Assembly: GCF_900114315.1 (NCBI RefSeq) | Contig: NZ_FOSQ01000003.1 | Location: forward strand, 310,001-374,000 | DNA length: 64,000 nt | DNA from: Falsiroseomonas stagni DSM 19981 | GTDB taxonomy: Bacteria > Pseudomonadota > Alphaproteobacteria > Acetobacterales > Acetobacteraceae | Direction of reading: 5' to 3' | In this document: piece after piece, positions 12,488 to 59,789 of the stretch | How the letters are laid out: every line of letters begins with the position of its first letter | How positions within the stretch are numbered: the first letter of the stretch is position 1 | Notes under the pieces: generated by a model | What the model saw: only the letters and a program-made list of their open reading frames with translations | Told to the model about the DNA's origin: nothing | The model's database searches: none | Position numbers and translations under genes: made by a program

Positions 12488-12510
12488 CTTCCTGGCCCAG
12501 GCCTGGTGCG

Positions 12511-44577: not shown

Positions 44578-44595
44578 CTGTCATGCGACGGTCGC
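44578..44595 (+). promoter_or_regulatory. Candidate Pho box before the phosphonate monoester hydrolase
   Basis: A perfect CTGTCAT half-site (44578-44584), 4 bases, then CGGTCGC (44589-44595; 4 of 7), the 11-bp spacing PhoB uses. It lies 43 bases before the start codon of a phosphorus-ester hydrolase. Confidence 0.5.
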
Positions 44596-44638
44596 CCACC
44601 AGGACTAAGCCGAGGCCGTCAGGACAGGGCGGACCTCC

Positions 44639-46207
44639 ATGCGGCAGCGGCGCAACGTACTTCTCATCGTCGTCGACCAGTGGCGCGCGGATTTCGTGCC
44701 GGCCCTCGGCGCGGATTTCCTGCGCACGCCGAACCTGGACCGCCTGTGCCGCGAAGGGGTGACCTTCCGCAACCATGTCACGACCGCGGTGCCCTGCGGC
44801 CCCGCCCGCGCCAGCCTGCTGACCGGCCTCTATTTGATGAACCATCGCGCCGTGCAGAACACGGTGCCGCTGGATGCGCGCCACACCAACCTCGGCAAGC
44901 AGCTGCGGCTGCTGGGCTATGATCCCGCGCTGATCGGCTACACCACCACCACGCCCGATCCGCGCAGCAGTGGGCCGAAGGATCCGCGCTTCACCACGCT
45001 CGGCGACCTGATGGACGGCTTCCGCAGCGTCGGTGCCTTCGAGCCGAACATGGATGGCTATTTCGGCTGGCTGGCGCATCAGGGCTACACGCTGCCGCCG
45101 AAGCGGGAGGATATCTGGCTGCCGGAAGGCGAGGATGCCGTGCCCGGCGCCACCAACCGCCCCTGCCGCATCCCCGCCGAACTCTCGGACAGCACCTTCT
45201 TCACGGAGAAGGCGCTCACCTACCTCAAGGGCAAGGGCGAAAAGCCCTGGTTCCTGCATCTCGGCTACTACCGCCCGCATCCCCCCTTCATCGCGCCCGC
45301 GCCCTACAACACGATGTACGACCCGGCCGACATGCCCGCGCCGATCCGGCGCGAGCGGTGGGAGGAGGAGGCCGCGCAGCACCCGATGCTGCGCCACTAC
45401 CTCCGCGGCATCCGCCAGGGCAGCTTCTTCCATGGCGCCGGCGGCGTGGCCACGGGCCTCGACGAATTCGCCATCCGCCAGATGCGCGCGACCTATGCCG
45501 GGTTGATGACGGAGATCGACGACTGCCTCGGCCGCGTCTTCTCCTACCTGGAGGAGACGGGGCAGTGGGACGACACCACCATCATCTTCACCTCCGACCA
45601 CGGTGAGCAACTCGGCGACCATTGGCTGCTCGGCAAGGTCGGCTATTTCGACGAAAGCTTCCGCATCCCGCTGGTGGTCAAGGGCGCCGGCGCCGAGCAC
45701 CGCGCCGGTGAGATCGACACCGCCTTCACCGAGAGCGTGGACGTGATGCCGACCATCCTGGAATGGCTGGGGGGCGAGGCGCCGCGCAGCGTCGATGGCC
45801 GTTCGCTGCTGCCCGTCATCGCCGGAGAGAAGCCGGCGGATTGGCGTGACGTGCTGCACTACGAATATGATTTCCGCGACGTCCACTACTCGAAGCCCGA
45901 GGGCGAGCTCGGCCTCTCGATGGATGAGAGCAGCCTCTGCGTCGTGCAGGATGCCGACTACAAGTATGTGCATTTCGCCGCGCTGCCGCCGCTGTTCTTC
46001 GACCTGGCGCGCGATCCGAACCAGTTCGAGAACCTCGCGGAGAATCCCGACTACGCCGCCCTGGTGCGCGACTACGCGCAGAAGGCGCTGTCGCTCCGCC
46101 TGCGCCATGCCGAGCGCACCCTGACCCATTTCCGCGCCACGCCGCAGGGGCTGGAGGAGCGCAAGCCCGACCCCGCGCCCGTAGCCACGCGCGCAGCCGC
46201 CGAATAA
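44639..46207 (+). CDS. Phosphonate monoester hydrolase / sulfatase-family enzyme
   Basis: 522 residues, alkaline-phosphatase superfamily, no signal peptide. NVLLIVVDQWRADFVPALG supplies the metal Asp. Cys53 in VPCGPARASLLTG is the residue modified to formylglycine (C-x-P-x-R). IIFTSDHGEQLGDHWLLGK and the late DVMPTILEWLG motif complete the sulfatase fold. The sequence style matches the rhizobial/Burkholderia phosphonate monoester hydrolase group, which also cuts phosphodiesters and sulfate esters. Neighbours (ABC importer, phosphodiesterase, PhnDEE) favour phosphorus esters. A formylglycine-generating enzyme must be elsewhere. First gene of the island. Confidence 0.88.
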   Translation: MRQRRNVLLIVVDQWRADFVPALGADFLRTPNLDRLCREGVTFRNHVTTAVPCGPARASLLTGLYLMNHRAVQNTVPLDARHTNLGKQLRLLGYDPALIGYTTTTPDPRSSGPKDPRFTTLGDLMDGFRSVGAFEPNMDGYFGWLAHQGYTLPPKREDIWLPEGEDAVPGATNRPCRIPAELSDSTFFTEKALTYLKGKGEKPWFLHLGYYRPHPPFIAPAPYNTMYDPADMPAPIRRERWEEEAAQHPMLRHYLRGIRQGSFFHGAGGVATGLDEFAIRQMRATYAGLMTEIDDCLGRVFSYLEETGQWDDTTIIFTSDHGEQLGDHWLLGKVGYFDESFRIPLVVKGAGAEHRAGEIDTAFTESVDVMPTILEWLGGEAPRSVDGRSLLPVIAGEKPADWRDVLHYEYDFRDVHYSKPEGELGLSMDESSLCVVQDADYKYVHFAALPPLFFDLARDPNQFENLAENPDYAALVRDYAQKALSLRLRHAERTLTHFRATPQGLEERKPDPAPVATRAAAE

Positions 46208-46219
46208 GGAGCCACGCCG

Positions 46220-47839
46220 ATGATCCCGCGCCGCCTGCTGCTCGCCACGCCCGCGCTCCTCCTGCCGCGCTTCGCCATCGCGCAGGCGGACCAGCGCCCT
46301 TCCATCACCATCGCCGTGCAGAAGATCAGCAACACCAACACGCTCGAAGTGCTGCGCGAGCAGTCGAATGTGGGTGAGCGGATCTTCTTCTCCTCGATCT
46401 GGGAGGGACTGATCGGGCGCGACTGGCTGGGCGGTCTCGGCCCGGTGCCGGGGCTGGCCACCGAATGGCGGCGCCTGTCCGACAGCGTGATCGAGCTGAA
46501 GCTCCGCCCCGGCGTCCGCTTCCACAATGGGGAGGAGATGACGGCGGAGGATGTCGTCTTCTCCTTCTCCCGCGAACGCATGTTCGGGGAGACGCTGGCG
46601 ACCGCGCATGGCCGGACGATCCCGATCGGGGAGGGGATGCCCGCCCCGCGCCCGGGCAAGGAATTGCCGCCGGAGGTTCCCGCCGTGGCCCGCCGCGCCT
46701 GGCCGGCGCTGGAACGGGTGGAGGCGGTGGACCGCATGACGGTGCGCTTCCACAACGCGACGCCGGACGTGACGCTGGAAGGGCGCCTGTCCCGCTATGG
46801 CAGCGAGATCGTGAGCCGCCGCGCCTTCGAAGCCGCATCCTCCTGGCTCGACTGGGCGCGCAAGCCCGTCACCACCGGCCCCTATCGCGTGCAGGAATTC
46901 CAGGCCGACCGGTCGCTGCTGCTGGTGGCGCATGATGATTACTGGGGCGGCCGCCCGCCGCTGCGCCAGATCCGCTTCGTCGAGGTCCCCGAGGTTTCAT
47001 CCCGCGTCAACGGCCTGCTGGCCGGCGACTACCACTTCGCCTGCGACATCCCGCCGGACCAGATCCCCGGGATCGAGCGCAACCGCGCCTTCGAGGTGCA
47101 GGGCGGCACCATCCTCAACCATCGCCTGATCTGCTTCGACAAGAGCCACGCCCAGCTGCGCGATGCCCGGGTGCGCCGCGCCATCACCCATTCGATGGAC
47201 CGCAAGGCGATCGTGGAGAGCCTCTGGGCTGGCCGCACCGAGGTGCCGAAGGGCCTGCAATGGCCCTATTACGACCAGATGTTCCATGCGGATTGGGACG
47301 TGCCGGCCTATGACCCCGCGGAAGCGCGGCGCCTGCTGCGGGAGGCCGGCTATCGCGGCGATCCCATCCCCTATCGCCTGCTGAACAACTACTACACCAA
47401 CCAGAACGCGACCGCGCAGGTGCTGGTGGAGATGTGGCGCTCCGTCGGCCTCAACATCCAGATCGAGATGAAGGAGAACTGGGCGCAGATCCTGGAACGC
47501 ACGCCGACGCGCGCGGTGAGGGACTGGTCGAACAGCGCCCCCTTCAACGATCCCGTCTCCTCCCTGGTCGCGCAGCACGGCCCGAACGGCCAGCAGCAGC
47601 AGGTCGGCGAATACAGCAATGACGAGTTGAACCGGCTGTCGGTGGAACTGGAGACGGGCACGGACCGCGCCCGCCGCCGTGCCGCCTTCCGCCGCATGCT
47701 GGAGATCGCGGAGCGCGAGGACCCCGCCTACACCGTCATCCACCAGAACGCGACCTTCACCGCCAAGCGCCGCGATATCCGCTGGAAGGCCAGCCCCGCC
47801 TTCGCCATGGATTTTCGTCAGTCGAATTGGGGTGTTTGA
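46220..47839 (+). CDS. Family-5 ABC solute-binding protein (first of two)
   Basis: 539 residues with signal peptide (RRLLLATPALLLPRFAIA). Dipeptide/oligopeptide-type receptor: LRPGVRFHNGEEMTAEDVVFSFSRER, TTGPYRVQEFQADRSLLLVAHDDYWGG and DARVRRAITHSMDRKAIVESLW are the family marks. The family also binds non-peptide ligands. Preceded by GGAG before the ATG at 46220. Its neighbour downstream is a close paralog, and both start QADQRP..TIAVQKI.NTNTLE. Ligand probably an organophosphorus ester, by context only. Confidence 0.9.
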   Translation: MIPRRLLLATPALLLPRFAIAQADQRPSITIAVQKISNTNTLEVLREQSNVGERIFFSSIWEGLIGRDWLGGLGPVPGLATEWRRLSDSVIELKLRPGVRFHNGEEMTAEDVVFSFSRERMFGETLATAHGRTIPIGEGMPAPRPGKELPPEVPAVARRAWPALERVEAVDRMTVRFHNATPDVTLEGRLSRYGSEIVSRRAFEAASSWLDWARKPVTTGPYRVQEFQADRSLLLVAHDDYWGGRPPLRQIRFVEVPEVSSRVNGLLAGDYHFACDIPPDQIPGIERNRAFEVQGGTILNHRLICFDKSHAQLRDARVRRAITHSMDRKAIVESLWAGRTEVPKGLQWPYYDQMFHADWDVPAYDPAEARRLLREAGYRGDPIPYRLLNNYYTNQNATAQVLVEMWRSVGLNIQIEMKENWAQILERTPTRAVRDWSNSAPFNDPVSSLVAQHGPNGQQQQVGEYSNDELNRLSVELETGTDRARRRAAFRRMLEIAEREDPAYTVIHQNATFTAKRRDIRWKASPAFAMDFRQSNWGV

Positions 47840-47843
47840 GCCG

Positions 47844-49448
47844 ATGATCTCGCGCCGTCTCCTCCTCGCATCACCCGCGCTCCTGGCGGCGCCCGCGCTC
47901 GCGCAGGCCGATCAGCGCCCGGTGATGACGATCGCCGTGCAGAAGATCGCCAACACCAACACGCTGGAGACGCTGCGGGAGCAGTCGAACGTCGGCAGCC
48001 GCACCTGGAATTCCTATGCGGAGACGCTGATCGACCAGTCCTGGACCGGCGACCTTTCCCTGCGTCCGGGCCTGGCGGAATCCTGGCGGCGGATCGATGA
48101 CCGGACGCTGGAACTGACGCTCCGCCAGGGTGTGCTGTTCCATGACGGCCGGACGATGACGGCGGAGGATGTCGCCTTCACCTTCAGCGCGGAGCGCATG
48201 GGCTGGAACCTGACGGTGGAGCAGGCCCGCAACCTGTTCGGCTCCGTCCCGGGCCAGACCCAGGGCCGCACACCGCCGCCGGAGGCGCTGGCCGTGGCGC
48301 GCCGCACCTTCCCCGGCCTGGATCGCATCGAGATCGTCGATGCCCGGACGATCCGTTTCCACAACCGCGTGCCCGACGTGACCCTGGAAGGCCGCATCAG
48401 CCGCAACGTCGCGATGATCCTGTCGCGCGATGCCTTCGAGAAGGCGGGTTCCTGGCTGGACTGGGCGCGCCGGCCCATCGGCACCGGGCCCTTCCGCGTG
48501 GTGGAGTTCCGCCCCGACCATTCGCTGGTGCTCGACGCCTTCGACAACTATTGGGGCGGCCGCCCGCCGGTGCGGCGGCTGCGCTTCCTGGAAGTGCCGG
48601 AGGTGTCGTCGCGAATCAACGCGCTGCTCTCGGGCGAGGTCGATTTCGCCTGCGACATACCGCCGGACCAGATCGCGACGGTGGAACGAAGCCCGCGCCA
48701 CCATGTCGTCGGCGGGCCCATCATGAACCACCGCCTGACGGTGTTCGACAAGAACCACCCGCATCTGCGCGACGCCCGCATCCGCCGCGCCTTCACGCAC
48801 AGCATCGACCGCGATGCCATCACGCAGGCGCTGTGGGGCGGCCGCGCGCCGGTACCGCGCGGGCTGCAATTCGAATTCTACGGCCCGATGTACCACGCCG
48901 ACTGGTCCGCGCCCCGCTTCGATCCCGCGGAGGCCCGCCGCCTGCTGCGGGAGGCCGGCTACCGCGGGGAACCGATCCCCTATCGCCTGCTGAACGGCTA
49001 CTACACCAATCAGGTGCCGACCGCGCAGATCCTGGTGGAAGGCTGGCGCGCCGTTGGCCTCAACGTTGTCATCGAGATGCGGGAGAATTTCCCGCAGGTC
49101 CTTTCGCGCGAAGGACAGCGCGGCGTGCGGGACTGGTCCGGCAGTGCCAGCTTCAACGACCCCGTCTCCTCCATCGTCGCCGCGCATGGGCCGGAAGGCC
49201 AGCAATGGCAGATCAATGAATGGCGGAACGAGGAATTCGGCCGCCTGTCGAACGCGCTTGAAACGGGCACCGATCCTGCCGAGCGTCGTCGCACCTTCCG
49301 CCGGATGCTGGAGATCGCGGAGCGCGAGGACCCCGCCTACACCGTGCTGCATCAATCCGTGAACCTGACGGCGAAGCGACGCGACCTCGGCTGGACGCCC
49401 GGTCAGTCCTTCCAGATGGATTTCCGCAGCCGGAACTTCACGGCGTGA
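47844..49448 (+). CDS. Family-5 ABC solute-binding protein (second of two)
   Basis: 534 residues, paralogous to the gene 4 bases upstream along the whole length (shared ADQRP, LREQSNVG, CDIPPDQI, LREAGYRG and REDPAYTV.HQ). Signal peptide LLLASPALLAAPALA. Differences cluster around residues 40-60 and in loops, suggesting the two receptors widen substrate range for one transporter. Its stop overlaps the first ATPase start (GTGA). Confidence 0.9.
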   Translation: MISRRLLLASPALLAAPALAQADQRPVMTIAVQKIANTNTLETLREQSNVGSRTWNSYAETLIDQSWTGDLSLRPGLAESWRRIDDRTLELTLRQGVLFHDGRTMTAEDVAFTFSAERMGWNLTVEQARNLFGSVPGQTQGRTPPPEALAVARRTFPGLDRIEIVDARTIRFHNRVPDVTLEGRISRNVAMILSRDAFEKAGSWLDWARRPIGTGPFRVVEFRPDHSLVLDAFDNYWGGRPPVRRLRFLEVPEVSSRINALLSGEVDFACDIPPDQIATVERSPRHHVVGGPIMNHRLTVFDKNHPHLRDARIRRAFTHSIDRDAITQALWGGRAPVPRGLQFEFYGPMYHADWSAPRFDPAEARRLLREAGYRGEPIPYRLLNGYYTNQVPTAQILVEGWRAVGLNVVIEMRENFPQVLSREGQRGVRDWSGSASFNDPVSSIVAAHGPEGQQWQINEWRNEEFGRLSNALETGTDPAERRRTFRRMLEIAEREDPAYTVLHQSVNLTAKRRDLGWTPGQSFQMDFRSRNFTA

Positions 49449-50425
49449 GTGCGCTCGTCTCGCTGCGCAACCTGCGCGTCAGCTTCGACGGCCAGGCGGC
49501 CCTGCGGGGCATCGACCTGGATGTCGCAGCGGGCGAGGCGGTGGGTCTTGTGGGCGAATCCGGCTGCGGGAAATCCGTGACCTGGCTGGCTGCGCTCGGC
49601 CTGCTGCCGGGCAAGGCCCGCGTGACGGGCAGTGCCACGCTGCAGGGGCAGGAACTGCTCGGTACCGCCCCCGCCACGCTGGACCGTGTGCGCGGTGGCC
49701 GCATCGCGATGATCTTCCAGGACCCCGCCAGCAGCCTGAACCCGGTGATCCGCATCGGGCGCCAGGTGGAGGAGGCGCTGCGCCTGCATCGTGGGATGCG
49801 CGGCGCGGCGGCGCGGGCGGAGGCGAAGCGGCTGTTCGACCAGGTCGGCATCCCCGATGCCGCGCGGCGGCTGGATGCCTGGCCGCATGAACTCTCCGGC
49901 GGGCAGAACCAGCGCGTGATGATCGCGATCGCGCTTGCCGGGCGCCCCGAATTGCTGGTGGCGGATGAACCGACCACGGCGCTGGACGTCACCATCCAGG
50001 CGCAGATCCTGACGCTGCTGCAGGATCTGCGGCGCGATACCGGCATGGCGCTGGTGCTGATCTCCCACGATCTCGGCGTGGTGGCGGATAGCTGCGACCG
50101 CGTCTGCGTCATGTATGCCGGGCGCATCGTGGAACAGGCGCCGGTGGCGCGGTTGTTCGCGGCGCCGACGCATCCCTATACGCGCGGCCTGCTGGGCGCG
50201 CTGCCACCGCTCGACGGACCCCGGCGTCGCCTGGCGGCGATCGGCGGCAGCGTGCCGGAGCCCTGGGCCATGCCCAGGGGCTGCGCCTTCGCGCCGCGCT
50301 GCGCGGAACGCTCCCCGGCCTGCGACCTCGCCGTGCCGGACGCCGTCCATCTCGCATCCGGCCACCAGGCCGCCTGCATCCGCGCGACCGCCATGGACCT
50401 GCTGAAGGAAACCGTCGCCGCATGA
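49445..50425 (+). CDS. Opp/Dpp-type ABC transporter ATPase (OppD-like)
   Basis: 326 residues. Walker A GESGCGKSVTW, signature LSGGQNQRVMIA, Walker B LLVADEPTTALDV and switch His in LISHDLGVV. The C-terminal CAFAPRCAERSPACD is the oligopeptide/dipeptide-type C-terminal extension with Cys residues. Begins with GTG overlapping the receptor stop, and ends overlapping the second ATPase by 4 bases. Confidence 0.94.
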   Translation: MSALVSLRNLRVSFDGQAALRGIDLDVAAGEAVGLVGESGCGKSVTWLAALGLLPGKARVTGSATLQGQELLGTAPATLDRVRGGRIAMIFQDPASSLNPVIRIGRQVEEALRLHRGMRGAAARAEAKRLFDQVGIPDAARRLDAWPHELSGGQNQRVMIAIALAGRPELLVADEPTTALDVTIQAQILTLLQDLRRDTGMALVLISHDLGVVADSCDRVCVMYAGRIVEQAPVARLFAAPTHPYTRGLLGALPPLDGPRRRLAAIGGSVPEPWAMPRGCAFAPRCAERSPACDLAVPDAVHLASGHQAACIRATAMDLLKETVAA

Positions 50426-51417
50426 CGCCGATGCTGGAGGCCAAGGGCCTGGTGCGCCGCTACGCCATGCGGCGCGGGCTCATGGGACGCAGCGTGGAGG
50501 TCCGCGCCGTCGATGGTGTCTCGCTCTCCGTCGAACGGGGCCGCACGCTCGGCCTCGTCGGTGAATCCGGCTGCGGCAAATCGACGACGGGCCGCCTGGT
50601 GCTGGGGCTGGAGGCGCCGGATGCCGGCAGCGTCGCCTTCCAGGACAAGCCCATGCCGCCGGCGGGCACGCCCGCCTGGCGCGCGCTGCGGTCGCGCATG
50701 CAGATGGTGTTCCAGGACCCGCTGGGCGCGCTGGATCGCCGCCTGCCGATCGGCGCGCAGGTGCAGGAACCCCTCGACATCCATGCGATCGGTGAGGCGA
50801 AGGACCGCCCCGCCCGCGCGATCGAGGCGCTGCGCGCGGTCGGGCTGCGGCCGGACCAGGCCGCGCGCTACCCGCATGAACTCTCCGGCGGCCAGCGCCA
50901 GCGCGCCGTGCTGGCGCGGGCGCTGGCGACGGAACCCGCGCTGCTGGTCTGTGACGAGCCGATCAGCGCGCTCGATGTCTCGATCCAGGCGCAGGTGATG
51001 AACCTGCTGATGGAGCAGCAGGAACGCCTCGGCCTTGGCATCCTGTTCATCAGCCACGATCTGCGCGCGGTGCGGCAGGTGAGCCACCGCGTCGCGGTGA
51101 TGTATCTCGGCACCATCGTGGAGGAGGGGGAGCCCGATGCGGTGCTGCACGACCCCGCCCATCCCTATGCGCAGGCCCTCGTCTCCGCCATCCCGCATCC
51201 CGGCCGCACGGGCAACCGCATCGTGCTGCAGGGGGATCCGCCGAATCCCGCGGACCGCCCGACCGGCTGCGCCTTCCACCCGCGCTGCCCCGTCGCGACC
51301 GCCTTCTGCGCGCGGGAGGCGCCGGTGCTGAAGCCGCGCAACAGCGATGGCCGCCTCGTCGCCTGCCATGTCGCGCAGGGCGATGTCGCGCCTGCCGTCA
51401 CGCAAAGGGCTGCCTGA
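50422..51417 (+). CDS. Opp/Dpp-type ABC transporter ATPase (OppF-like)
   Basis: 331 residues. Walker A GESGCGKSTTGRL, signature LSGGQRQRAVLARAL, Walker B LLVCDEPISALDVS, switch His ISHDLRAV, and a C-terminal TGCAFHPRCPVAT extension. The OppD-OppF pair drives the two permeases that follow. Translationally coupled to both neighbours. Confidence 0.94.
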   Translation: MTPMLEAKGLVRRYAMRRGLMGRSVEVRAVDGVSLSVERGRTLGLVGESGCGKSTTGRLVLGLEAPDAGSVAFQDKPMPPAGTPAWRALRSRMQMVFQDPLGALDRRLPIGAQVQEPLDIHAIGEAKDRPARAIEALRAVGLRPDQAARYPHELSGGQRQRAVLARALATEPALLVCDEPISALDVSIQAQVMNLLMEQQERLGLGILFISHDLRAVRQVSHRVAVMYLGTIVEEGEPDAVLHDPAHPYAQALVSAIPHPGRTGNRIVLQGDPPNPADRPTGCAFHPRCPVATAFCAREAPVLKPRNSDGRLVACHVAQGDVAPAVTQRAA

Positions 51418-51418
51418 G

Positions 51419-52360
51419 ATGATCCGCTTCCTCGGCAGCCGCCTGCTGCGCGCCGCCATCACCATCGTGATGGTCGTGACCTTCGCCTTCGTCGTGCTGC
51501 GCCTGTCCGGCGACCCCGCGCAGATCATCATGGGCGCGGATGCGCCGCCGGAGGCGGTGGATGCCTTCCGCGCGGCCTGGGGCCTCGATCGCCCCGTCTG
51601 GATCCAGTACTTTCATTACTTCGGCGCGATCCTGCAGGGAGACCTTGGGCGATCCATGCGCGACGGGCGCGATGCCATCGTGCTGGTGGCGGAGCGGATT
51701 CCCGCGACGCTGGCGCTGACCCTGCCGGCGCTGGCCATCAAGGTGGGGCTCGGCATTCCCGCGGGGATCACCGCGGCGCTGCATCGCAATTCCTTCATCG
51801 ACCGCGCGGTGATGATGCTGGCGGTGGCCGGCTTCACCGTGCCGTCCTTCGTGCTCGGCCTGCTGCTGGTGCTGGTCTTCGCGGTGCAGCTGGGGTGGTT
51901 GCCGTCGGGCGGGCAGGACAGCTGGCGGCACGCGATCCTGCCCATCATCACGCTCGGCATCGGCGGGGCCGCCGTGCTGGCGCGCTTCACCCGCAGCGCC
52001 ATGCTGGAAGTACTGGGCCAGCCCTATATCCGCACGGCCAGCGCGAAGGGCGTGCCCTGGCGCGCCGTGGTCTGGGGCCATGCGCTGCCCAACGCCGCCA
52101 TCCCCACCGTCACCATCGTGGGCTTCATGGTCGGCAGCCTGATCGCCGGCGCCGTCGTCGTCGAAAGCGTCTTCTCCTGGCCCGGGGTCGGGCGGCTGCT
52201 GGTGGTGGCCGTCGCCAACCGGGACCTCGCGGTGGTGCAGTGCATCCTGCTGCTGGTGGCGATGACCATGGTGACCTCCAACCTCATCGTCGATCTGCTC
52301 TACGGGCTGCTCGATCCGCGGCTGCGCAACCAGCCGAAGCGCGCGGCGGGGATAGCCTGA
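51419..52360 (+). CDS. Opp/Dpp-type ABC permease (DppB-like)
   Basis: 313 residues, six membrane segments. Starts MIRFLGSRLLRAAITIVMVVTF; GLDRPVWIQYFHYFGAILQGDLGRSMRD and the EAA loop IRTASAKGVPWRAVVWGHALPNAAIP are typical DppB features. The ATG at 51419 lies one base after the ATPase stop. One base also separates it from the next permease. Confidence 0.94.
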   Translation: MIRFLGSRLLRAAITIVMVVTFAFVVLRLSGDPAQIIMGADAPPEAVDAFRAAWGLDRPVWIQYFHYFGAILQGDLGRSMRDGRDAIVLVAERIPATLALTLPALAIKVGLGIPAGITAALHRNSFIDRAVMMLAVAGFTVPSFVLGLLLVLVFAVQLGWLPSGGQDSWRHAILPIITLGIGGAAVLARFTRSAMLEVLGQPYIRTASAKGVPWRAVVWGHALPNAAIPTVTIVGFMVGSLIAGAVVVESVFSWPGVGRLLVVAVANRDLAVVQCILLLVAMTMVTSNLIVDLLYGLLDPRLRNQPKRAAGIA

Positions 52361-52361
52361 C

Positions 52362-53237
52362 ATGTCCGACATGACCCTGCCCGCCATCGCGGACGCGCCG
52401 CCGCGCGCGAAGCGCGCCCTGCCGCCGCCGATGGTGCTGTTCGGCCTCGTCTGGCTCACGCTCATGCTGCTGACGGCGGTGCTGGCCGATGTCATCAGCC
52501 CCTATGCCTATACCGCTCTCGACCTCCGCAACCGCCTGGCGCCGCCGGCCTTCATGGGCGGCACCTGGCTGCATCCGCTGGGCACGGATGAGCTGGGCCG
52601 CGATGTGCTGGCCCGCCTGATCTATTCGATCCGCATGAGCCTGCTGATCGCCTTCGGCGCCACGATCATCGGCGCGCTGATCGGCACGACGCTCGGCTTC
52701 CTCGCCGCCCATTTCAGGGGTTTCGTGGAGCAGGTGGTGCTGGCGCTGGTCGATTTCTCGGCCAGCCTGCCCTTCCTGATCCTGGCGCTGGCGGTGCTGG
52801 CCTTCTTCGGCAATTCGATGGTGCTGTTCATCTGCCTGCTCGGCCTGCATGCCTGGGAACGCTACGCCCGCATCGCGCGGGGCCTCGCCATCAGCGCGGG
52901 GTCGCAGGGCTATGCGGCGGCGGTGCGGCAGCTCGGCGCCTCTCCCTGGCGGATCTATGGGCGCCACGTTCTGCCGAACATCGCCTCCACGCTGATCGTG
53001 TCGATGACCTTGGCCTTCCCGGAGATCATCCTGCTGGAAAGCGGCCTGTCCTTCCTCGGCCTCGGCGTGCAGCCGCCTTCGACCTCGCTCGGCTCCATGG
53101 TGGGTTATGGGCGCGAATACCTGACGCGCGCGCCCTGGATCCTGCTCTCTCCCGCCCTCACCATCGTGCTGACCACGCTGTCCGTCTCCCTCATCGGCGA
53201 CTGGCTGCGGGACCGGCTCGACCCCACGCTGCGATAG
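52362..53237 (+). CDS. Opp/Dpp-type ABC permease (DppC-like)
   Basis: 291 residues. PLGTDELGRDVLARLIYSIRMSLLIAFGATIIG is the DppC hallmark; EAA loop YAAAVRQLGASPWRIYGRHVLPNIASTLIV and LLESGLSFLGLGVQPPSTSLGSMVGYGREYL follow. Completes a receptor-ATPase-permease importer whose genes are all coupled. A phosphodiesterase starts 10 bases after its stop. Confidence 0.95.
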   Translation: MSDMTLPAIADAPPRAKRALPPPMVLFGLVWLTLMLLTAVLADVISPYAYTALDLRNRLAPPAFMGGTWLHPLGTDELGRDVLARLIYSIRMSLLIAFGATIIGALIGTTLGFLAAHFRGFVEQVVLALVDFSASLPFLILALAVLAFFGNSMVLFICLLGLHAWERYARIARGLAISAGSQGYAAAVRQLGASPWRIYGRHVLPNIASTLIVSMTLAFPEIILLESGLSFLGLGVQPPSTSLGSMVGYGREYLTRAPWILLSPALTIVLTTLSVSLIGDWLRDRLDPTLR

Positions 53238-53247
53238 GCCCTTCCCC

Positions 53248-54675
53248 ATGACGCGCTTCATCCTCGTGGCCCTCGATGGGCTGCGGCCCGACATGGTGTC
53301 AGCGGCCGCAACGCCATATCTGGCGGCGCTGGCCGCCGCGGGCACGCGCTTTGCCAATGCGCGCAGCGTCTTCCCGAGCGAGACGCGCGTCGCCACGCCC
53401 TCCCTCATCACGGGGTGCCGCCCCGGCGGGCATGGCATGGTGGCGAACACGCTGTTCGACGCCAGCGTGGCGCCGGACAGACTGCTGCGCACCAAGCTCG
53501 TCAGCGATGTCCTCGCCATGGCGCAGGGCGGTGAGAGCCCGCTGGAACGGCCGAGCCTGGCGGAGCGCCTGGCGCCGCAGGGCCTGTCCTTCGCCCTCGT
53601 CAGTGCCGGCACCGCGGGCGCGGCGCGGCTGCTGCACCCGGCGGCGGAACGCCTCGGCAGTTTTCGGTGGAACGTCGAGGATGAGGCAGGCGAGACCGCC
53701 CGCCTGGTCAGCGACCGGCTGGGGCCGACGCCGCCCCATGCCGTGCCCAACCTCGCGCGGCTGCGCCACGCCGCGCGCGTGATGCTGGAGATCGTGCTGC
53801 CGGAACGCCGGCCCGATGTGACGCTGCTGTGGCTGTCGGAGCCCGACATCGCCTTCCATTGGGGAGGGCTGCTGTCGCCGGAGGCGCAGGCGGGCCTGCG
53901 CGCCGCCGATGAGGTGCTGGGCGATATCGTCGCCTGGCGCGATGCGCAGCCGGATGCCGATGACATCGCCATCATCGTGCTGTCCGACCACGGCCACGTC
54001 ACCGGCCGCGGCAAGACATCGCTGCGCGATGAACTGTGCCGCGCGAGCTTCCGGGCCGGCACGGGGCTGGGGGAGGGCATCGACATCGCGGTCGCGCCCG
54101 CGGCGGCGCCGGGCCTCTGGTTCCGCGATCCGTCGCTGGCGCCGCAGGTGGCGGCCTTCCTGGCGGAACAGAACTGGGCCGGGCCCTTGCTGGCGCGCGA
54201 TCCCGCGATCCTCCCGCCCGGGCAGGCCACGCCCCTGTCGCTGCTGGGCAGTGGGCACCGCCGCAGCGCCGACCTCGTCGTCACCTTCGCCGGCAGCGAG
54301 GCGTCCGACGAATGGGGCCTGCCCGGCTTCGCGCCCTTCGATGCGCCGGATGTGCCGGAGGGTGGCGGCATGCATGGCGGGCTTCACCGGGCGGAGCTGG
54401 CGACCGTGCTGGTGATGCAGGGCGGGCCGTTCCGCGAAGGCGCGGTGGCGCAGATGCCGGCGGACCTGACCGACATCGTGCCGACCATCCTGCATCTGCT
54501 GGGGCTGGAGCAGGAGGGCCTGGAAGGCCGGCCTTTGCTGGCCGGCTGGGATGCGGCGGCGGATGCCCTGCCGATGCGGGAGCGAGTGATGCTGCCGCGC
54601 GGCTTCGTGCTGGAGGCGATGCGCGCGACGCCGGAAGGGCGCCTCTACCCCACCGCGCTGCGGCGCTGTGGTTGA
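53248..54675 (+). CDS. Alkaline-phosphatase-superfamily phosphodiesterase (NPP-like)
   Basis: 475 residues, no signal peptide, so cytoplasmic. Two-metal nucleotide pyrophosphatase/phosphodiesterase pattern: Asp10 in LVALDGLRPDM, nucleophile Thr46 in SVFPSETRVATPSLITG, SEPDIAFHWGG (Asp, His), IIVLSDHGHVTG (Asp-His) and GGGMHGGLH (His). Such enzymes cut phosphodiesters or phosphonate esters. Following an Opp-type importer by 10 bases, it probably splits the imported substrate inside the cell. The region after it, to 54789, contains a candidate Pho box. Confidence 0.88.
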   Translation: MTRFILVALDGLRPDMVSAAATPYLAALAAAGTRFANARSVFPSETRVATPSLITGCRPGGHGMVANTLFDASVAPDRLLRTKLVSDVLAMAQGGESPLERPSLAERLAPQGLSFALVSAGTAGAARLLHPAAERLGSFRWNVEDEAGETARLVSDRLGPTPPHAVPNLARLRHAARVMLEIVLPERRPDVTLLWLSEPDIAFHWGGLLSPEAQAGLRAADEVLGDIVAWRDAQPDADDIAIIVLSDHGHVTGRGKTSLRDELCRASFRAGTGLGEGIDIAVAPAAAPGLWFRDPSLAPQVAAFLAEQNWAGPLLARDPAILPPGQATPLSLLGSGHRRSADLVVTFAGSEASDEWGLPGFAPFDAPDVPEGGGMHGGLHRAELATVLVMQGGPFREGAVAQMPADLTDIVPTILHLLGLEQEGLEGRPLLAGWDAAADALPMRERVMLPRGFVLEAMRATPEGRLYPTALRRCG

Positions 54676-54685
54676 ACAGGCGCGC

Positions 54686-54725
54686 TTGTCATCAAAACTT
54701 CAATGAAGCGTCATCAACCTGTCCC
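54686..54725 (+). promoter_or_regulatory. Candidate Pho box array upstream of the small ORF
   Basis: Heptamers at an exact 11-base period: TTGTCAT (54686), ACTTCAA (54697), GCGTCAT (54708) and CTGTCCC (54719), matching CTGTCAT at 6, 3, 5 and 5 of 7 positions. This is the layout PhoB dimers bind. Confidence 0.55.
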
Positions 54726-54789
54726 TGCCGCCTGTTGCCCGCGCTGACGCCGCGGTCGACCCTGCGGGGCGGATGGGGAGTGCGTGCGG

Positions 54790-55026
54790 ATGGGCCAGGG
54801 TTGCGATGCCGGTGCCTTGCATTATCGCGGGCACTGCATCCGCGCATGGCGCCGCAAGCGCGGCTGGACCATCCGCGTCAGCCGCGCCAGCGTCACGACA
54901 TTGCCGCCCGCGGTGCTCGTGATGCTCCGCAACAACGTACCCCATGGACGCGCCATGCTGATGACGGAGGCGCGCCACTGGATCGATCGCCTGGTCGATG
55001 GCCCGCCCTGGCAGGGTAGCCCCTGA
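54790..55026 (+). CDS. Small protein of unknown function
   Basis: 78 residues, basic (RAWRRKRGWTIRVSRASVTTLP), with two Cys near the N-terminus and a C-terminal helix AMLMTEARHWIDRLVDG. Not recognised. It lies between two candidate Pho boxes with the same codon bias as its neighbours. Could be a small phosphate-starvation protein; could also be spurious. Confidence 0.5.
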   Translation: MGQGCDAGALHYRGHCIRAWRRKRGWTIRVSRASVTTLPPAVLVMLRNNVPHGRAMLMTEARHWIDRLVDGPPWQGSP

Positions 55027-55036
55027 CGCCACGACA

Positions 55037-55076
55037 ACGTCACGGCATCGTCAAGCGATGGCAATGCAGCCTGTCT
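55037..55076 (+). promoter_or_regulatory. Candidate Pho box before the phytase-like gene
   Basis: ACGTCAC (55037), TCGTCAA (55048) and TGGCAAT (55059) repeat at an 11-base period, with CTGTCT at 55071 one base out of phase. The GTCA core is exact in the first two. The phytase-like start lies 39 bases further on. Confidence 0.55.
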
Positions 55077-55114
55077 AAAGCCCGGCTACGACATCCGGGG
55101 ATGGACAGGATACG

Positions 55115-56500
55115 ATGCGCGCCCTTCTGCTTGCCGCCACCGCGCTGATCGGGCTGGCGCCCGCGGCGATCGCCGACCAGCGCTTCGACGCGACGCTCGC
55201 CGGCCATGCGATCCTGCCCGCCTTCACCATGGCCGTGCCGCCGGCGGATGCGCCGCGGGATGCGCTGGTCTCCGGCAAGTTCGCCGGCCCCGGCAACCTC
55301 CGCGTGGACCGGCCGGGCGCCATCATGGGCGATACCGGCCCGCTGCATGGCCGGCGAGAGACCGGCATCGCCTTCCCCTTCATCGGCCAGCCCATCCAGG
55401 GCTTCTCCGGCATCAAGCCGGTGGCGGGCGATCCCGGCGCCTATTGGGTGCTGACCGACAACGGCTTCGGCACGCGCCGCAACAGCCCCGATACGCTGCT
55501 GATGTTCCACAAGGTGCGTCCTGACTTCCGCACCGGCCAGGTGGCGGTCGAACGCACGACCTTCCTCTCCGACCCCCAGCGCCGCATTCCCTTCCGCATC
55601 ACCTATGAGGGTACCGAGGCGCGCTACCTGACCGGCGCCGATTTCGACCCGGAGAGCATCCAGCCGCTCGCCGATGGCAGCTTCATGATCGGCGAGGAAT
55701 TCGGCCCCTTCCTGGTGCATGTCGATGCCGAAGGCCGCGTGCTGCGCGTGGTGGAGACGCGCATGGACGGCCAGGTGCTGATGAGCCCGGACAACCCCGC
55801 CCTGCAGGTCGCGGCCACGCCCACGGCGGGCGTCGCCTATCGCGTGCGGCGCTCCGGCGGGTATGAGGGCATGGCCCTGACGCCGGATGGGCAGACGCTG
55901 TGGGCGATGCTGGAACAGCCGCTCTTCGCGCCCAATTCCGACCAGCCGGAGGGTCAGTTCCTGCGCGTGCTGGAATACAGCGTGCCGCGCGGCGAATGGA
56001 CCGGGCGCACGGTGCGCTTCCGCCTGGAACCCGGCGCGACCGCGATCGGCGACTTCAACTTCATCGACGCGACGCGCGCCCTGGTGATCGAGCGTGACAA
56101 TGGCGAAGGCGACCCCGGCCTTGCCTGCCCGCAGGGCCAGCAGCCCACCCGCGCGCAGCCCTGCTTCCCGCTGCCCGCCCGCGTGAAGCGCGTGACGCTG
56201 GTGGACATGGCGCAGACCGATAGCGAGGGCTTCGTGCGCAAGATCGGCCATATCGACCTGATGGCGATCCGCGACAGCGAAGGCCTGGCGCGGGTGCGGG
56301 GCGACCTGCCCGCCAATGCGCCGCGGGACCGCTTCACCTTCCCCTTCTTCACGATCGAGGATGTGGCGGTGGTGGATGAGGACCACATCATCGTCGGCAA
56401 CGACAACAACCTGCCCTTCAGCGCCGGCCGCCACTTCTTCCAGGCCGATGCGAATGAGCTGATCCTGCTGCGCGTGCCCGAATTGCTGCGCGCGCGCTGA
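55115..56500 (+). CDS. Secreted phytase-like esterase family protein
   Basis: 461 residues with a signal peptide (MRALLLAATALIGLAPAAIA). It matches the 'esterase-like activity of phytase' family, a beta-propeller-like domain: GNLRVDRPGAIMGDTGPL, YWVLTDNGFGTRRNSPDTLL, GADFDPESIQPLADGSFMIGEEFGPFLVHVDAEGRVL and DVAVVDEDHIIVGNDNNLPFS. Acidic clusters probably bind calcium. Periplasmic release of phosphate from organic esters is inferred from family and Pho context. Its TGA stop forms one copy of the duplication flanking the MITE-like element. Confidence 0.85.
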   Translation: MRALLLAATALIGLAPAAIADQRFDATLAGHAILPAFTMAVPPADAPRDALVSGKFAGPGNLRVDRPGAIMGDTGPLHGRRETGIAFPFIGQPIQGFSGIKPVAGDPGAYWVLTDNGFGTRRNSPDTLLMFHKVRPDFRTGQVAVERTTFLSDPQRRIPFRITYEGTEARYLTGADFDPESIQPLADGSFMIGEEFGPFLVHVDAEGRVLRVVETRMDGQVLMSPDNPALQVAATPTAGVAYRVRRSGGYEGMALTPDGQTLWAMLEQPLFAPNSDQPEGQFLRVLEYSVPRGEWTGRTVRFRLEPGATAIGDFNFIDATRALVIERDNGEGDPGLACPQGQQPTRAQPCFPLPARVKRVTLVDMAQTDSEGFVRKIGHIDLMAIRDSEGLARVRGDLPANAPRDRFTFPFFTIEDVAVVDEDHIIVGNDNNLPFSAGRHFFQADANELILLRVPELLRAR

Positions 56501-56598
56501 GAGCTTGTGAATTAATGCCCGAAAGCGCCGGAATCCGAGGAAATATCCCAATGATTTCAACGGGCATTAATGCTCAAGCTCGCTTCTTTCACAGGCTC
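56501..56598. mobile_element. 98-bp MITE-like element
   Basis: Terminal inverted repeats GAGCTTGTGAA (56501-56511) and TTCACAGGCTC (56588-56598) match at 10 of 11 positions. TGA directly flanks both ends (56498-56500 and 56599-56601), a 3-bp target duplication of TNA type. Inside is a second perfect 11-bp inverted repeat, ATTAATGCCCG/CGGGCATTAAT (56511-56521/56561-56571). There is no room for a transposase, so it would move in trans, perhaps by an IS5-family (IS1031-like) enzyme. Confidence 0.7.
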
Positions 56599-56612
56599 TG
56601 AGGACCGGCACC

Positions 56613-57521
56613 ATGCATCGCCGTCGCATCCTGCTCTCCGGCGCCGCGAGCCTTCTCGCGGCGCCTGCCCTCGCCCAGGCGGATTGGCGGACCCAGTTCC
56701 GTGAGCTTCGCCTCGGCATCTCCTCCGCCGAGAATGAGCGGGATGCGGTGGCGCGGCAGCAGCCCTTCCAGGACTACATCCAGCGCGCGCTGGGCATTCC
56801 GCTGCGCGTCTTCCGCGCCACCGACTATGCGGGGGTGGTGGAGGCGATGCGCAGTTCCAACATCGAATTCGCCCGCATCGGCCCGGCCAATTACGCGCTG
56901 GCGCGGCGCGTGATGGGCGACCGCGTCATCCCCTTCGCGCGCGACCGCGACAATGAAGGGGAGACGGGCTACTACGCCGTCGCCTTCGTGAAGGCCGACA
57001 GCCCCTTCCGCCGGATCGAGGATCTGCGCGGCCGCAGCTTCGCCTTCGCCGATCCCAACTCCACCTCCGGCTTCGCCTTCCCCGCCTATTTCCTGCGCCG
57101 CCAGGGCTTCGTGCCGGAGCAGTTCTTCAGCCGCACCGGCTTCTCCGGCAGCCATGAGCAGAGCGTCATCGCCGTGCTGAACGGCACCTACGATGCCGCT
57201 GCCACCTTCTGGTCCAACGAACGCCACGGCAACATCCAGCGGATGGTGGAAAAGGGCATGGTCGCGCCCGGGTCCACGCGCATCGTCTGGACCAGCCCGC
57301 AGATTCCGAACTCCCCCTGGGTGATGCGCGCGGAACTGCCGGAGGGGCTGCGCCGTGCCTGGCAGGAAGCGGTCTTCGCCATGCCGGAACGCGACCCCGC
57401 CGCCTTCCGCGTCGCGGCCTCCGGCGCCAGCGGCCTCGCGCCGACGCGGCATGAGGACTACCTCGATGTCATCGCCGTGGTGGAGGAGAATCTCGCCCGC
57501 CGTCGAAACCGGGGCACGTGA
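56613..57521 (+). CDS. phnD: Phosphonate ABC transporter substrate-binding protein
   Basis: 302 residues with signal peptide (LSGAASLLAAPALA). PhnD family: LRLGISSAENERDAVARQQPFQDYIQRALGIPLRVFRATDYAGVVEAMRSSNIEFARIGPANYALA, then FADPNSTSGFAFPAYFLR and AATFWSNERHGN. Binds phosphonates or phosphite-like anions in the periplasm. GAGG from the MITE border provides the ribosome-binding site. Coupled to phnE by 4-base overlap. Confidence 0.94.
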   Translation: MHRRRILLSGAASLLAAPALAQADWRTQFRELRLGISSAENERDAVARQQPFQDYIQRALGIPLRVFRATDYAGVVEAMRSSNIEFARIGPANYALARRVMGDRVIPFARDRDNEGETGYYAVAFVKADSPFRRIEDLRGRSFAFADPNSTSGFAFPAYFLRRQGFVPEQFFSRTGFSGSHEQSVIAVLNGTYDAAATFWSNERHGNIQRMVEKGMVAPGSTRIVWTSPQIPNSPWVMRAELPEGLRRAWQEAVFAMPERDPAAFRVAASGASGLAPTRHEDYLDVIAVVEENLARRRNRGT

Positions 57522-58378
57522 CCCGGGCCCTGGCGGCGGAGGCCGCCTGGCAGCGGGCGCGCCGGCACCATCGCCGGCAATGGCTGCTGTGGTCCACGGC
57601 CTTCCTGTTCGCCATGCTGCTGGCGTCATGGGTCGGGGAGGTTGACTTGGCGCGGCTGCTGCGCGGGCTGCCCATGGCGGCGGATTATGTCTGGCGCACC
57701 ATTCCCACCCTGCGCGTCGCGACGCTCGGGGAGGATCTGGCGGAGTGGCTCTGGGGCCTCGATGTCTGGGTCGTGCTGCTGCTGGATACGCTGCTGATCG
57801 CCTATGCCGGCACGCTGCTCGGCGCCGTCGCGGCGCTGGTCTGTTCCTTCCCCGCGGCGGCGACGCTGGCGCCGCGATGGGCCATGGGGCCGGCGCGGCG
57901 CGTGCTGGAATTCGCTCGCACGGTGCCGACACTCGTCTTCGCGCTGATCTTCGTCTACGCCTTCGGCCTCGGCCCCTTCGCGGGGGTGCTGGCGCTGGTG
58001 CTGCACAGCTGGGGCGCACTCGGCAAGCAGTTCGCGGAGGTGCATGAGAATGCGGACCTGCGGACCGTGGAGGCGATCCGCGCCGCGGGTGGCGCCTGGC
58101 CGCAGGCCATGCGCTACGGCGTGCTGCCGCAATCCCTGCCGGACATGCTGTCCTTCGGCCTGCTGCGCTTCGAGATCAATGTGCGGGAGGCCTCCGTACT
58201 CGGCATCGTCGGCGCGGGCGGGATCGGGGAGGAGCTGTACCTCTCGGTCCGCCAGTTCAGCTATCCCGACATCTCCGCCATCCTGCTGCTGATCCTGCTG
58301 ACGGTGACGGCGATCGATCTTGCCTGCGGCTGGCTGCGCCACCGCATCATCGGCCCCGGCGCGGCGGCTGGCGCATGA
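57518..58378 (+). CDS. phnE: Phosphonate ABC transporter permease (PhnE), copy 1
   Basis: 286 residues from a GTG overlapping the phnD stop. Six membrane segments; EFARTVPTLVFALIFVYAFGLGPFAGVLAL and VEAIRAAGGAWPQAMRYGVLPQSLPDMLSFGLLRFEINVREASVLGIVGAGGIGEEL form the PhnE core with the EAA loop. Overlaps the second permease by 4 bases. Confidence 0.94.
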   Translation: MTRALAAEAAWQRARRHHRRQWLLWSTAFLFAMLLASWVGEVDLARLLRGLPMAADYVWRTIPTLRVATLGEDLAEWLWGLDVWVVLLLDTLLIAYAGTLLGAVAALVCSFPAAATLAPRWAMGPARRVLEFARTVPTLVFALIFVYAFGLGPFAGVLALVLHSWGALGKQFAEVHENADLRTVEAIRAAGGAWPQAMRYGVLPQSLPDMLSFGLLRFEINVREASVLGIVGAGGIGEELYLSVRQFSYPDISAILLLILLTVTAIDLACGWLRHRIIGPGAAAGA

Positions 58379-59139
58379 CCGCGCGGCGTTCCGTCCTGCT
58401 GGTGTCGCTGGGCTTCGCGCTGCTGCTGCTGGCGCTGTGGCGCGTCGATGCCTCGCCGCAGCGAGTCTGGGACGGGCTCGGCAAGCTCGGCTGGCTGGTG
58501 GTGCTGATGTGGCCGCCATCGCCGGGCGGGGCGCTGCCGGACCTGCTGCGCGCGCTGGCCGAGACGCTGGCCATGGCCTTCCTCGGCACCTTGCTGGCCG
58601 CCGTCGTGGCGCTGCCCTTCGCTTTTCTCGGCGCGGGCACCATCGTCGCCAATGCCTGGGCGCGCTTCACCATCCGCCGGGGCTTCGACGGGCTGCGCGC
58701 GATCGACAGCCTGGTCTGGGCGCTGATCTTCGTCTCCGCCGTCGGCATGGGCCCTTTCGCCGGCATCCTGGCCCTCGCGCTGCCGGATATCGGGACCTTC
58801 GCAAAAACCTTCTCGGAGGCGCTGGAGGCGACGGAGCGGCGGCAGGTGGAGGGCGTGCGCGGCGCCGGTGCGTCCCGCCTGCTGGTCATCCGCTACGGGC
58901 TGATCCCGCAGGCCCTGCCCATCATGCTGTCGCAGGTGCTCTACATGTTCGAGAGCAACACGCGATCGGCGACGATCCTCGGCGTGGTCGGCGCCGGGGG
59001 CATCGGGTTGGCGCTGTCCGACCGCATCCGCATCAACAACTGGGACGAGGCCGCCTTCATCCTGCTGATGATCCTGGTCACCGTCGCCCTCATCGATGGA
59101 GCCAGCCGATGGCTGAGGCTGAGACTGATCCGCGCCTAG
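58375..59139 (+). CDS. phnE: Phosphonate ABC transporter permease (PhnE), copy 2
   Basis: 254 residues, paralogous to copy 1: IDSLVWALIFVSAVGMGPFAGILALALPDIGTFAKTFSEALEAT and VEGVRGAGASRLLVIRYGLIPQALPIMLSQVLYMFESNTRSATILGVVGAGGIG. Two different permeases suggest a heterodimer. No PhnC ATPase gene is present in this stretch. Its end overlaps the transferase start by 31 bases. Confidence 0.94.
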   Translation: MTARRSVLLVSLGFALLLLALWRVDASPQRVWDGLGKLGWLVVLMWPPSPGGALPDLLRALAETLAMAFLGTLLAAVVALPFAFLGAGTIVANAWARFTIRRGFDGLRAIDSLVWALIFVSAVGMGPFAGILALALPDIGTFAKTFSEALEATERRQVEGVRGAGASRLLVIRYGLIPQALPIMLSQVLYMFESNTRSATILGVVGAGGIGLALSDRIRINNWDEAAFILLMILVTVALIDGASRWLRLRLIRA

Positions 59140-59789
59140 GTGCCTACCAGGACCCGGGGAGCGCCACGAAGGCGCTGGGCCTGAAGCCCTTCATCCACGA
59201 GACCGCCAAGGTGCGCGACAGCGAATTCGGCATCTATACCGAGGTCGGTGCCCGCAGCACGGTCGTGGAGACGGTGTTCGGGGACTACTCCTACGTCGTG
59301 CACGACAGCCAGATCATCTACGCGACGATCGGCCGCTTCTGCTCCATCGCCAGCCATGTCCGCATCAACCCCGGCAACCACCCGCTGGATCGCGTGGCGC
59401 TGAGCCATGTGACCTACCGCGCCAGCGCCTATGGGCTGGGGGAGGACGAGGCCGGGTTCTTCGACTGGCGGCGGCAGAAGCGCGTGACGCTGGGGCATGA
59501 TGTGTGGCTGGGCCATGGCGTCATCGTGCTGCCTGGCGTGAGCATCGGCACGGGGGCCGCCATCGGTGCCGGCGCCGTCGTGACGAAGGACGTGCCGCCC
59601 TTCGCCATCGTCGTCGGCAATCCCGGCCGCGTTCTGCGTTTCCGCTTCCCGGACGCGGTGCGGGACAGCCTGCTGCGCATCGCCTGGTGGGACTGGCCGC
59701 GGGACAGGCTGGCGGCGGGCATCGCGGAGATGCGCAATCTGTCGGCCGAGGATTTCTGCCGGCGCCACGATCGCCACGGGGCCGATTGA
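59109..59789 (+). CDS. Hexapeptide-repeat transferase of phosphonate clusters
   Basis: 226 residues, left-handed beta-helix acetyltransferase fold: AKVRDSEFGIYTEVGARSTVVETVFGDYSYVVHDSQIIYATIGRFCSIASHVRINPGNHPLDRV and GHDVWLGHGVIVLPGVSIGTGAAIGAGAVVTKDVPPFAIVVGNPGRVLRFRF. It matches the phosphonate-associated hexapeptide transferase family usually placed with C-P lyase genes. Likely acetylates an intermediate or an inhibitory aminophosphonate. The ATG at 59109 lies inside phnE copy 2, out of frame. No C-P lyase gene follows. Confidence 0.88.
   Translation: MAEAETDPRLGAYQDPGSATKALGLKPFIHETAKVRDSEFGIYTEVGARSTVVETVFGDYSYVVHDSQIIYATIGRFCSIASHVRINPGNHPLDRVALSHVTYRASAYGLGEDEAGFFDWRRQKRVTLGHDVWLGHGVIVLPGVSIGTGAAIGAGAVVTKDVPPFAIVVGNPGRVLRFRFPDAVRDSLLRIAWWDWPRDRLAAGIAEMRNLSAEDFCRRHDRHGAD

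Follow-up and report, generated by a model that had tools for sequence, protein, structure and literature searches.

What does an oligopeptide-type importer bring into the cell when its genes stand between those of two phosphorus-ester hydrolases? The question is raised by Falsiroseomonas stagni DSM 19981 (genome of 6.38 Mb in 44 contigs), in a stretch of 64,000 nt, hereafter the window (NZ_FOSQ01000003.1, positions 310,001 to 374,000). Its core unit, pehA-SBP1-SBP2-oppD-oppF-oppB-oppC-NPP (44639-54675, + strand), is compact: neighbouring genes overlap or stand at most 12 bp apart. We consider that this unit quite probably serves the cell under phosphate starvation, by importing phosphorus esters intact and cleaving them in the cytoplasm. 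Two receptors of the type of AccA, the agrocinopine receptor, would grip a phosphodiester or a phosphonate monoester by a fixed set of Asn, Asn, Tyr-Tyr and Ser, the rest of the pocket differing; OppBCDF would transport this ligand inward, and in the cytoplasm PehA, with its formylglycine nucleophile, and the NPP-like enzyme would hydrolyse it, yielding an alcohol together with either a phosphate monoester or a phosphonate. Ordinary phosphatases would take over the phosphate esters, and the carbon-phosphorus (C-P) lyase encoded elsewhere in the genome the phosphonates, while the adjacent PhyL and phnDEE-PhnT units might serve related phosphorus sources. Candidate ligands compatible with this scheme are phosphodiesters of sugars, of glycerol or of other alcohols, as well as phosphonate monoesters. 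The support computed consists of gene content, receptor ancestry, a conserved pocket, recurrent phosphodiesterase neighbours, the lack of signal peptides and PHO-box-like sites; ligand class, direction of transport, fate of the products and control by PhoB are what we infer.

SBP1 (46220-47839, +) and SBP2 (47844-49448, +), 64% identical, are family-5 receptors (PF00496, SBP_bac_5). They are not closest to peptide-binding proteins: a profile of the two, compared with solved proteins, places the AccA chains on top with 310 bits and the dipeptide receptor DppA next with 123 bits. Searched singly against the PDB, each receptor reaches E 1e-40 with seven distinct chains. The titles of six name an agrocinopine receptor; that of the seventh, 8cke, names only an ABC transporter receptor, and this chain aligns in the manner of AccA. 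Two control family-5 receptors of the same genome have 5u4o as best match (183 and 173 bits), and AccA comes at ranks 17 and 9. A tree built from 61 selected rows groups the receptor family, AccA and five AccA-like proteins at 99/97 and leaves all 20 controls outside; the internal placement of AccA, a long row of unusual composition, is weak (83/37). Four more distant receptors earlier labelled AccA-like are grouped among the controls in this tree. SBP1 and SBP2 appear then to be AccA-type receptors, set apart from other family-5 receptors. Judged by its receptor, Roseomonas ponticola (95%) is the nearest named relative among the matches listed.

According to the accessible part of its structural study, AccA binds the pyranose-2-phosphate moiety of agrocinopine and of agrocin 84, the phosphate being contacted by Asn54, Ser419, Tyr375 and Tyr376, and the anomeric hydroxyl by Asn54, Asn284, Ser419 and Glu510 (PMC4526662). 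At a single offset, 12 of the 13 residues named in that paper fit the letters of the chain; Glu504 reads Trp under this numbering and was excluded from the pocket test. SBP1, SBP2 and 114 of 115 relatives (receptors at least 44% identical, taken from 80 loci) have the full set of grip residues, Asn54, Asn284, Tyr375, Tyr376 and Ser419; the last relative has four. Among 20 control receptors, picked from better-scoring matches in the own genome, fifteen have one of the five, four have none and one has two. Two AccA-like paralogues of the own genome, kept separate from these controls, have five and four grip residues. Ten more receptors of the loci, below 44% identity, retain all five in four cases, four in two and one in four.

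Within the family the five grip positions lie at the 0-8th percentile of column variability and positions 145, 178 and 423 at the 96th-99th, the alignment being least certain around 145 and 178 and in the distant controls; of the 519 columns, 62 show no or almost no variation. Where an operon has more than one receptor (one locus contains as many as six family members), the grip is constant and the walls vary. This pocket may be read as a fixed phosphate grip with a variable specificity. Six family receptors occur in one operon of Falsiroseomonas selenitidurans, with an NPP-type gene after the first (L031, 7168-17955). One of the two own-genome paralogues (L011, 5411-6958) has a nearly full AccA pocket (N54, Y145, W178, N284, M372, Y375, Y376, S419) and adjoins a calcineurin-type phosphoesterase gene; it is a candidate receptor for an agrocinopine-like sugar phosphodiester.

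PehA (44639-46207, +) scores 971.6 bits with the NCBIfam model NF045661 (cut-off 900) and comes closest to two solved phosphonate monoester hydrolases (PMHs), 2W8S (886 bits) and 2VQR (876 bits). Its formylglycine motif CxPxR, here CGPAR, and the PMH-type threonine align with both; this threonine is given, in the available text on the PehA/PMH family, as a marker of phosphodiesterases versus arylsulfatases (PMC5488252). CxPxR is seen in 35 of 36 PehA relatives, the remaining one being interrupted by a contig end, and the FGE family has five matches in the genome. The window PehA is accordingly predicted to belong to the PehA/PMH equivalog, with the activity this implies. Selenocysteine at the catalytic cysteine, considered for the in-frame TGA of several relatives, was dropped, the stops of named loci lying only at about 509-512 of the query, the normal gene end.

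The NPP-type phosphodiesterase (53248-54675, +; PF01663) retains in its alignment the metal ligands and the Thr nucleophile of NPP enzymes. Asp10, Asp200, His204, Asp247 and His248 are invariant over 15 sequences, and Thr46 and His376 nearly invariant; we take the metal-ligand roles of these aligned residues to be those of the NPP family. In a structure model (predicted local distance difference test, pLDDT, 93.7) its nearest proteins are NPP enzymes, and phosphonoacetate hydrolase is within the first 50.

Where would these enzymes act? Both reading frames open at the earliest possible start codon following a stop. The start of PehA is 11 residues ahead of its VDQ motif and that of the NPP-like protein nine residues ahead of the first metal ligand, so that neither has room for a signal peptide. 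In 31 of 36 PehA relatives this distance is 9-15 residues, the other five having later called starts or a cut contig. The initial annotation had already described the two hydrolases adjoining the importer as devoid of signal peptides, and the start codons bear it out. Its model of import of intact esters followed by cytoplasmic cleavage is likewise supported, by the receptor clade, the pocket residues, the neighbours, these hydrolases and the precedent of AccA/AccBCDE/AccF.

A survey of the neighbourhoods of the receptor family, which had been proposed as a check of this model, was made on the best 80 loci of a scan of named genomes, in which 576 candidates encode a receptor relative. A phosphodiesterase-type gene recurs at most three genes away in 68 of them, and belongs to one of four enzyme families. 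PehA is inside the unit or directly upstream in 36 loci; in other loci this place is occupied by GDPD (21 clustered loci, of which some have PehA as well), by NPP-type or by calcineurin-type proteins. Frequent companions there are HAD phosphatases, SorC-type sugar-phosphate regulators and xylose-isomerase-like proteins. By Pfam at E 1e-5, 145 of the 147 directly flanking genes (two being over the size limit) give 47 PF01663, 36 PF00884, 20 PF03009 and 4 PF00149, a PehA being counted under both PF01663 and PF00884 if it matches both. For the 112 genes at offset 4, these families are not among the 25 listed, the last of which count a single gene, hence at most one gene each. Both own-genome AccA-like paralogues (contigs C22 and C33) also adjoin a calcineurin-type phosphoesterase gene.

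The association can be followed from the side of the enzyme. Fifteen near relatives were compared, 14 from the genus and one from the family. PehA is encoded by 12 of these at E 1e-150, with 77-95% identity in 11; ten of the 11 have an SBP1 relative within 3 kb after PehA, and in the eleventh this relative is located at the beginning of a different contig. In the remaining four, which have no close PehA, SBP1 is likewise missing at E 1e-120. At E 1e-120, PehA is found in 32 of 150 family genomes, the window genome included, and 15 of the 20 such loci examined have an adjoining receptor-importer unit; these 20 loci are not a separate sample, because several seem to come from the same genomes as the named set.

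The pairing extends to a well-studied enzyme. PehA of plasmid pRL9 of R. johnstonii 3841 is the 2VQR chain (pRL90232) over 514 residues, the sole difference being the nucleophile, Cys changed to Ala in the crystal, and its gene stands directly upstream of a receptor-OppDFBC unit. The crystallised R. leguminosarum phosphonate monoester hydrolase (RlPMH) is thus the pehA of a receptor-Opp operon on pRL9. The plasmid record names the enzyme phosphoric/sulfuric ester hydrolase PehA and the receptor ABC transporter substrate-binding protein. RlPMH and the B. caryophylli PMH (2W8S) share with the window PehA the equivalog model, CxPxR, the threonine marker and the lack of a signal peptide; what the window locus adds is a partner in the genome and a probable origin for the natural substrate.

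Is the unit controlled by phosphate? All positions of the window were scored on both strands for PHO-box-like sites. The best, CTGTCATGCGACGGTCGC (44578-44595, +; score 15.75), lies 61 bp upstream of pehA, and a tandem occupies the NPP-PhyL gap (54686-54725, +), with TTGTCATCAAAACTTCAA at 54686 (14.75, second best) and GCGTCATCAACCTGTCCC at 54708 (13.3, tied ninth). Upstream of phnD no comparable site was found, the best there scoring 11.85. The same scoring elsewhere in the genome finds CTGTCATCGAAGCTTCAT in a pstS-like promoter and CTGTCATCGAACGTTCAA in the phnG-phnF gap, much like TTGTCATCAAAACTTCAA. Among the genes concerned, PhnG, PhnI, a GntR/UTRA (PhnF-type) regulator, a response regulator, a PBP-like receptor and PhoU were checked by Pfam; the names pstS and phoB are given by gene order and similarity.

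In the relatives, the best upstream site of the unit has a median score of 13.4 (76 of the 80 loci being usable) versus 11.2 for 448 other upstream regions taken from these loci as controls, with a score of at least 14 in 27 of 76 versus 48 of 448 (Mann-Whitney p 2e-19, inflated by relatedness). Where the unit begins with pehA, the tested stretch extends about 20 bp into the gene, and the distance from its end to the best site is 78-106 bp in 27 of 33 cases. PHO-box-like sites thus speak for Pho control of both the pehA unit and the phytase-like gene. Common Pho control through three sites, as first annotated, is supported by boxes for these two; for phnDEE, with no comparable box in front of phnD, it is not.

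The 15-kb run that surrounds the core unit was initially annotated as a single one. All the genes listed are indeed found by family searches at 44639-59789, on the + strand; gaps of 439 bp upstream of 55115 and 112 bp upstream of 56613 divide them into three same-strand units: the core unit, the PF13449 gene and phnD-phnE-phnE-TIGR03308. The second is PhyL (55115-56500, +), a putative secreted protein with a signal-peptide-like N-terminus. The gene and this N-terminus stand as annotated; the protein is at most a putative hydrolase, "phytase-like" being its Pfam name.

In the third unit (56613-59789, +) successive genes overlap: phnD, a phosphonate-type receptor (56613-57521, +; TIGR03431, 261.6 bits, barely above the cut-off of 261.1), two phnE permeases (57518-58378 and 58375-59139, +; TIGR01097, 262.2 and 270.2 bits, cut-off 216.7) and PhnT, a phosphonate-associated hexapeptide transferase (59109-59789, +; TIGR03308, 270.7 bits, cut-off 201.65), which starts at 59109 in the codon model and at 59136 in the family searches. 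No PhnC passes its cut-off in the window, so that PhnD and PhnE stand here without the PhnC of a PhnCDE system; the two PhnC of the genome that pass are on contigs C22 and C31. Downstream of 59789 lie a tRNA-Arg (59868-59944, -) and a gentisate 1,2-dioxygenase gene.

PehA and this PhnD (E 1e-90) occur together in eight relatives, three of which have phnD 2.4 kb upstream of pehA; in F. selenitidurans, phnDEE-TIGR03308-pehA-receptors-opp form one run. The phn link to the pehA unit recurs therefore in more than one arrangement and is not obligatory, since phnD stands beside pehA in only three of the eight, though the F. selenitidurans run is contiguous.

Elsewhere the genome encodes PhnJ, PhnG and PhnI, as well as PhoU beside a pst-like operon; no PhnC passes the cut-off in its C-P lyase region (L010, 7311-14947; PhnG, PhnI, PhnJ). 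Another phnD-phnC-phnE-phnE set (L021, 6704-13337), which adjoins genes for a GlpD-like FAD protein, a HAD hydrolase and a DeoR-type regulator, perhaps takes up a glycerol-linked phosphorus compound. Very strong PHO-box-like sites lie there (12485-12560) between the HAD gene preceding this phnD set and the regulator gene.

The 112-bp gap in front of phnD is filled by a 108-bp interspersed inverted-repeat element (56495-56602, no strand assigned), resembling a miniature inverted-repeat transposable element and recognised by its genome-wide matches: 21 including itself, 19 of them at 92% identity or more. Copies are present in the C-P lyase region (C27:42943) and in the two paralogue regions (C22:487206 and C33:71638, the latter between the receptor and phosphoesterase genes).

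Several points weigh against our interpretation. The AccA sugar contacts Y145, W178, E434 and E510 and the gate W423 are not kept, and read A, Y, Q, F, P in SBP1 and T, N, A, F, S in SBP2; Glu510 is Phe in most relatives. As the sugar-side contacts are not kept, agrocinopine itself is an unlikely substrate. In 12 of the 80 loci no phosphodiesterase-type gene was found within three genes; a contig end accounts for L035, L036 and L046, but not for the other nine. The number of such genes per offset (72 of 151 at offset 1, 12 of 141 at 2, 2 of 132 at 3 and 3 of 480 at 4 or more) was obtained with profiles derived from the flanking genes themselves. Five of the 20 PehA loci (L132, L134, L143, L144 and L145) have no adjoining SBP-Opp unit, and in three of them PehA is at 73-77%; L134 and L145 hold distant PehA paralogues (49% identity), and by eye L143 and L144 offer no obvious partner gene. 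As for control, the weights of the PHO-box matrix were set by hand from the consensus after the intergenic stretches had been viewed, and the 76 loci tested upstream are not independent. The third-best site of the window, at 49222 (-), is inside SBP2, and because it scores 14.55 the margin of the 54686 site over background is small. Beside this, the importer-less pehA relative of L132 (1210-3572) adjoins a GDPD (PF03009) gene, a second pairing of these enzyme kinds.

Could the unit be an ordinary peptide importer of the Opp/Dpp kind, placed by chance next to hydrolase genes? Its transporter genes do carry the Opp-type Pfam domains: PF00005 with oligo_HPY in OppD (49445-50425, +) and OppF (50422-51417, +), PF00528 with PF19300 in OppB (51419-52360, +; family search run from 51347) and PF00528 with OppC_N in OppC (52362-53237, +). 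The initial annotation further supposed that such importers are generally annotated for peptides, which does not apply here: among the 25 listed of 77 records of plasmid homologues, one is named dipeptide/oligopeptide, 23 bear the generic name ABC transporter substrate-binding protein and one has no annotated feature. Since the receptors group with AccA and away from the 20 controls, possess the grip residues, and have several kinds of phosphodiesterases recurring at the same place, we hold chance proximity of a peptide importer to be highly improbable. Import of sulfate esters, alone or along with phosphorus esters, with PehA serving as a sulfatase in sulfur scavenging, seems very unlikely. 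PehA matches PF00884 (Sulfatase), its family name includes sulfuric esters, and PMH enzymes are catalytically promiscuous, as stated in the accessible portion of PMC5488252; on the other side, its closest solved relatives are PMHs, the threonine marker against arylsulfatases aligns, and PHO-box-like sites are present. Where other enzymes take the place of PehA, they are of GDPD, NPP or calcineurin type, and such enzymes act on phosphorus esters.

The unit might also serve carbon supply, through catabolism of sugar or polyol phosphodiesters as in Acc, under its own sugar-phosphate-responsive repressor. Many Rhizobiales loci adjoin SorC-type regulators, HAD phosphatases and xylose-isomerase-like proteins, and the pRL9 unit is preceded by a sugar ABC transporter and followed by a LacI-family regulator; but no such regulator or sugar enzyme is inside the window unit, and the PHO-box-like sites and the phn genes indicate phosphorus. 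We find this rather unlikely here, carbon use and phosphorus use being compatible with each other. A last possibility is that independent operons have come together by chance in the 15-kb stretch, and that the pehA unit alone functions as a set. In this direction, PhyL is found in none of the 80 loci (flanks of at most 10 kb), the repeat element separates it from phnD, and R. ponticola has neither PhyL nor phnDEE-PhnT in the 21.6 kb examined, just about 3 kb of which is downstream of the unit. At the opposite, the position of phnD before pehA in three of eight relatives, the contiguity of phnDEE-PhnT with pehA in F. selenitidurans and the second-best PHO-box-like site, which precedes PhyL, leave a chance run on the unlikely side.

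A phosphorus-ester importer coupled to cytoplasmic hydrolases has its closest counterpart in the Acc system of Agrobacterium Ti plasmids (AccABCDE-AccF-AccG), in which, following the part of PMC4526662 available, an ABC importer takes up the intact phosphodiester and a phosphodiesterase cleaves it in the cytoplasm. The receptor is of the same family-5 clade, with the same phosphate-binding residues. The window unit differs by the sugar side of the pocket, the PehA and NPP hydrolases, its two receptors, the PHO-box-like sites, the absence of a repressor gene and the linked phn genes. The xanthosan system of Xanthomonas, AvrBs2-XanT-XanP, also couples uptake of a sugar phosphodiester to its cleavage by a phosphodiesterase; as far as the consulted sections of PMC12807533 describe it, it uses a TonB-dependent outer-membrane transporter and a 2H-phosphoesterase, and neither kind is present in the window unit. 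With the PhnCDE importers the window has in common PhnD and two PhnE above curated cut-offs, but not phnC.

Beyond this locus, AccA-type importers could form a broad alphaproteobacterial class of phosphodiester importers, whose operons in the 80 loci have between one and six receptors, and of which the agrocinopine system of Ti plasmids would be one offshoot. An unchanging phosphate grip would be combined with hypervariable pocket walls and an exchangeable cytoplasmic enzyme of PehA, NPP, GDPD or calcineurin type, and the substrates delivered would be the natural substrates of PMHs. On this wider proposal our judgement is evenly balanced. No report of a link between PMHs and AccA-type importers was met in the literature searched, as far as its texts were accessible, most subscription journals being outside its coverage; a marine study, in its available part, already proposed that PMHs free phosphonates from dissolved organic matter (PMC5649143).

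Phosphodiesters make up a large share of organic phosphorus. If the system works as proposed, intact uptake followed by cytoplasmic cleavage would keep the freed phosphate from competitors. Five residues would then assign a ligand class to many family-5 receptors that now bear generic names, and the PMH enzymes, well studied and long known as promiscuous catalysts, would gain a likely natural job. The locus offers a testable natural context for these hydrolases, the crystallised RlPMH included; above all, it opens to test what PMH enzymes and a large family of receptors do in nature.

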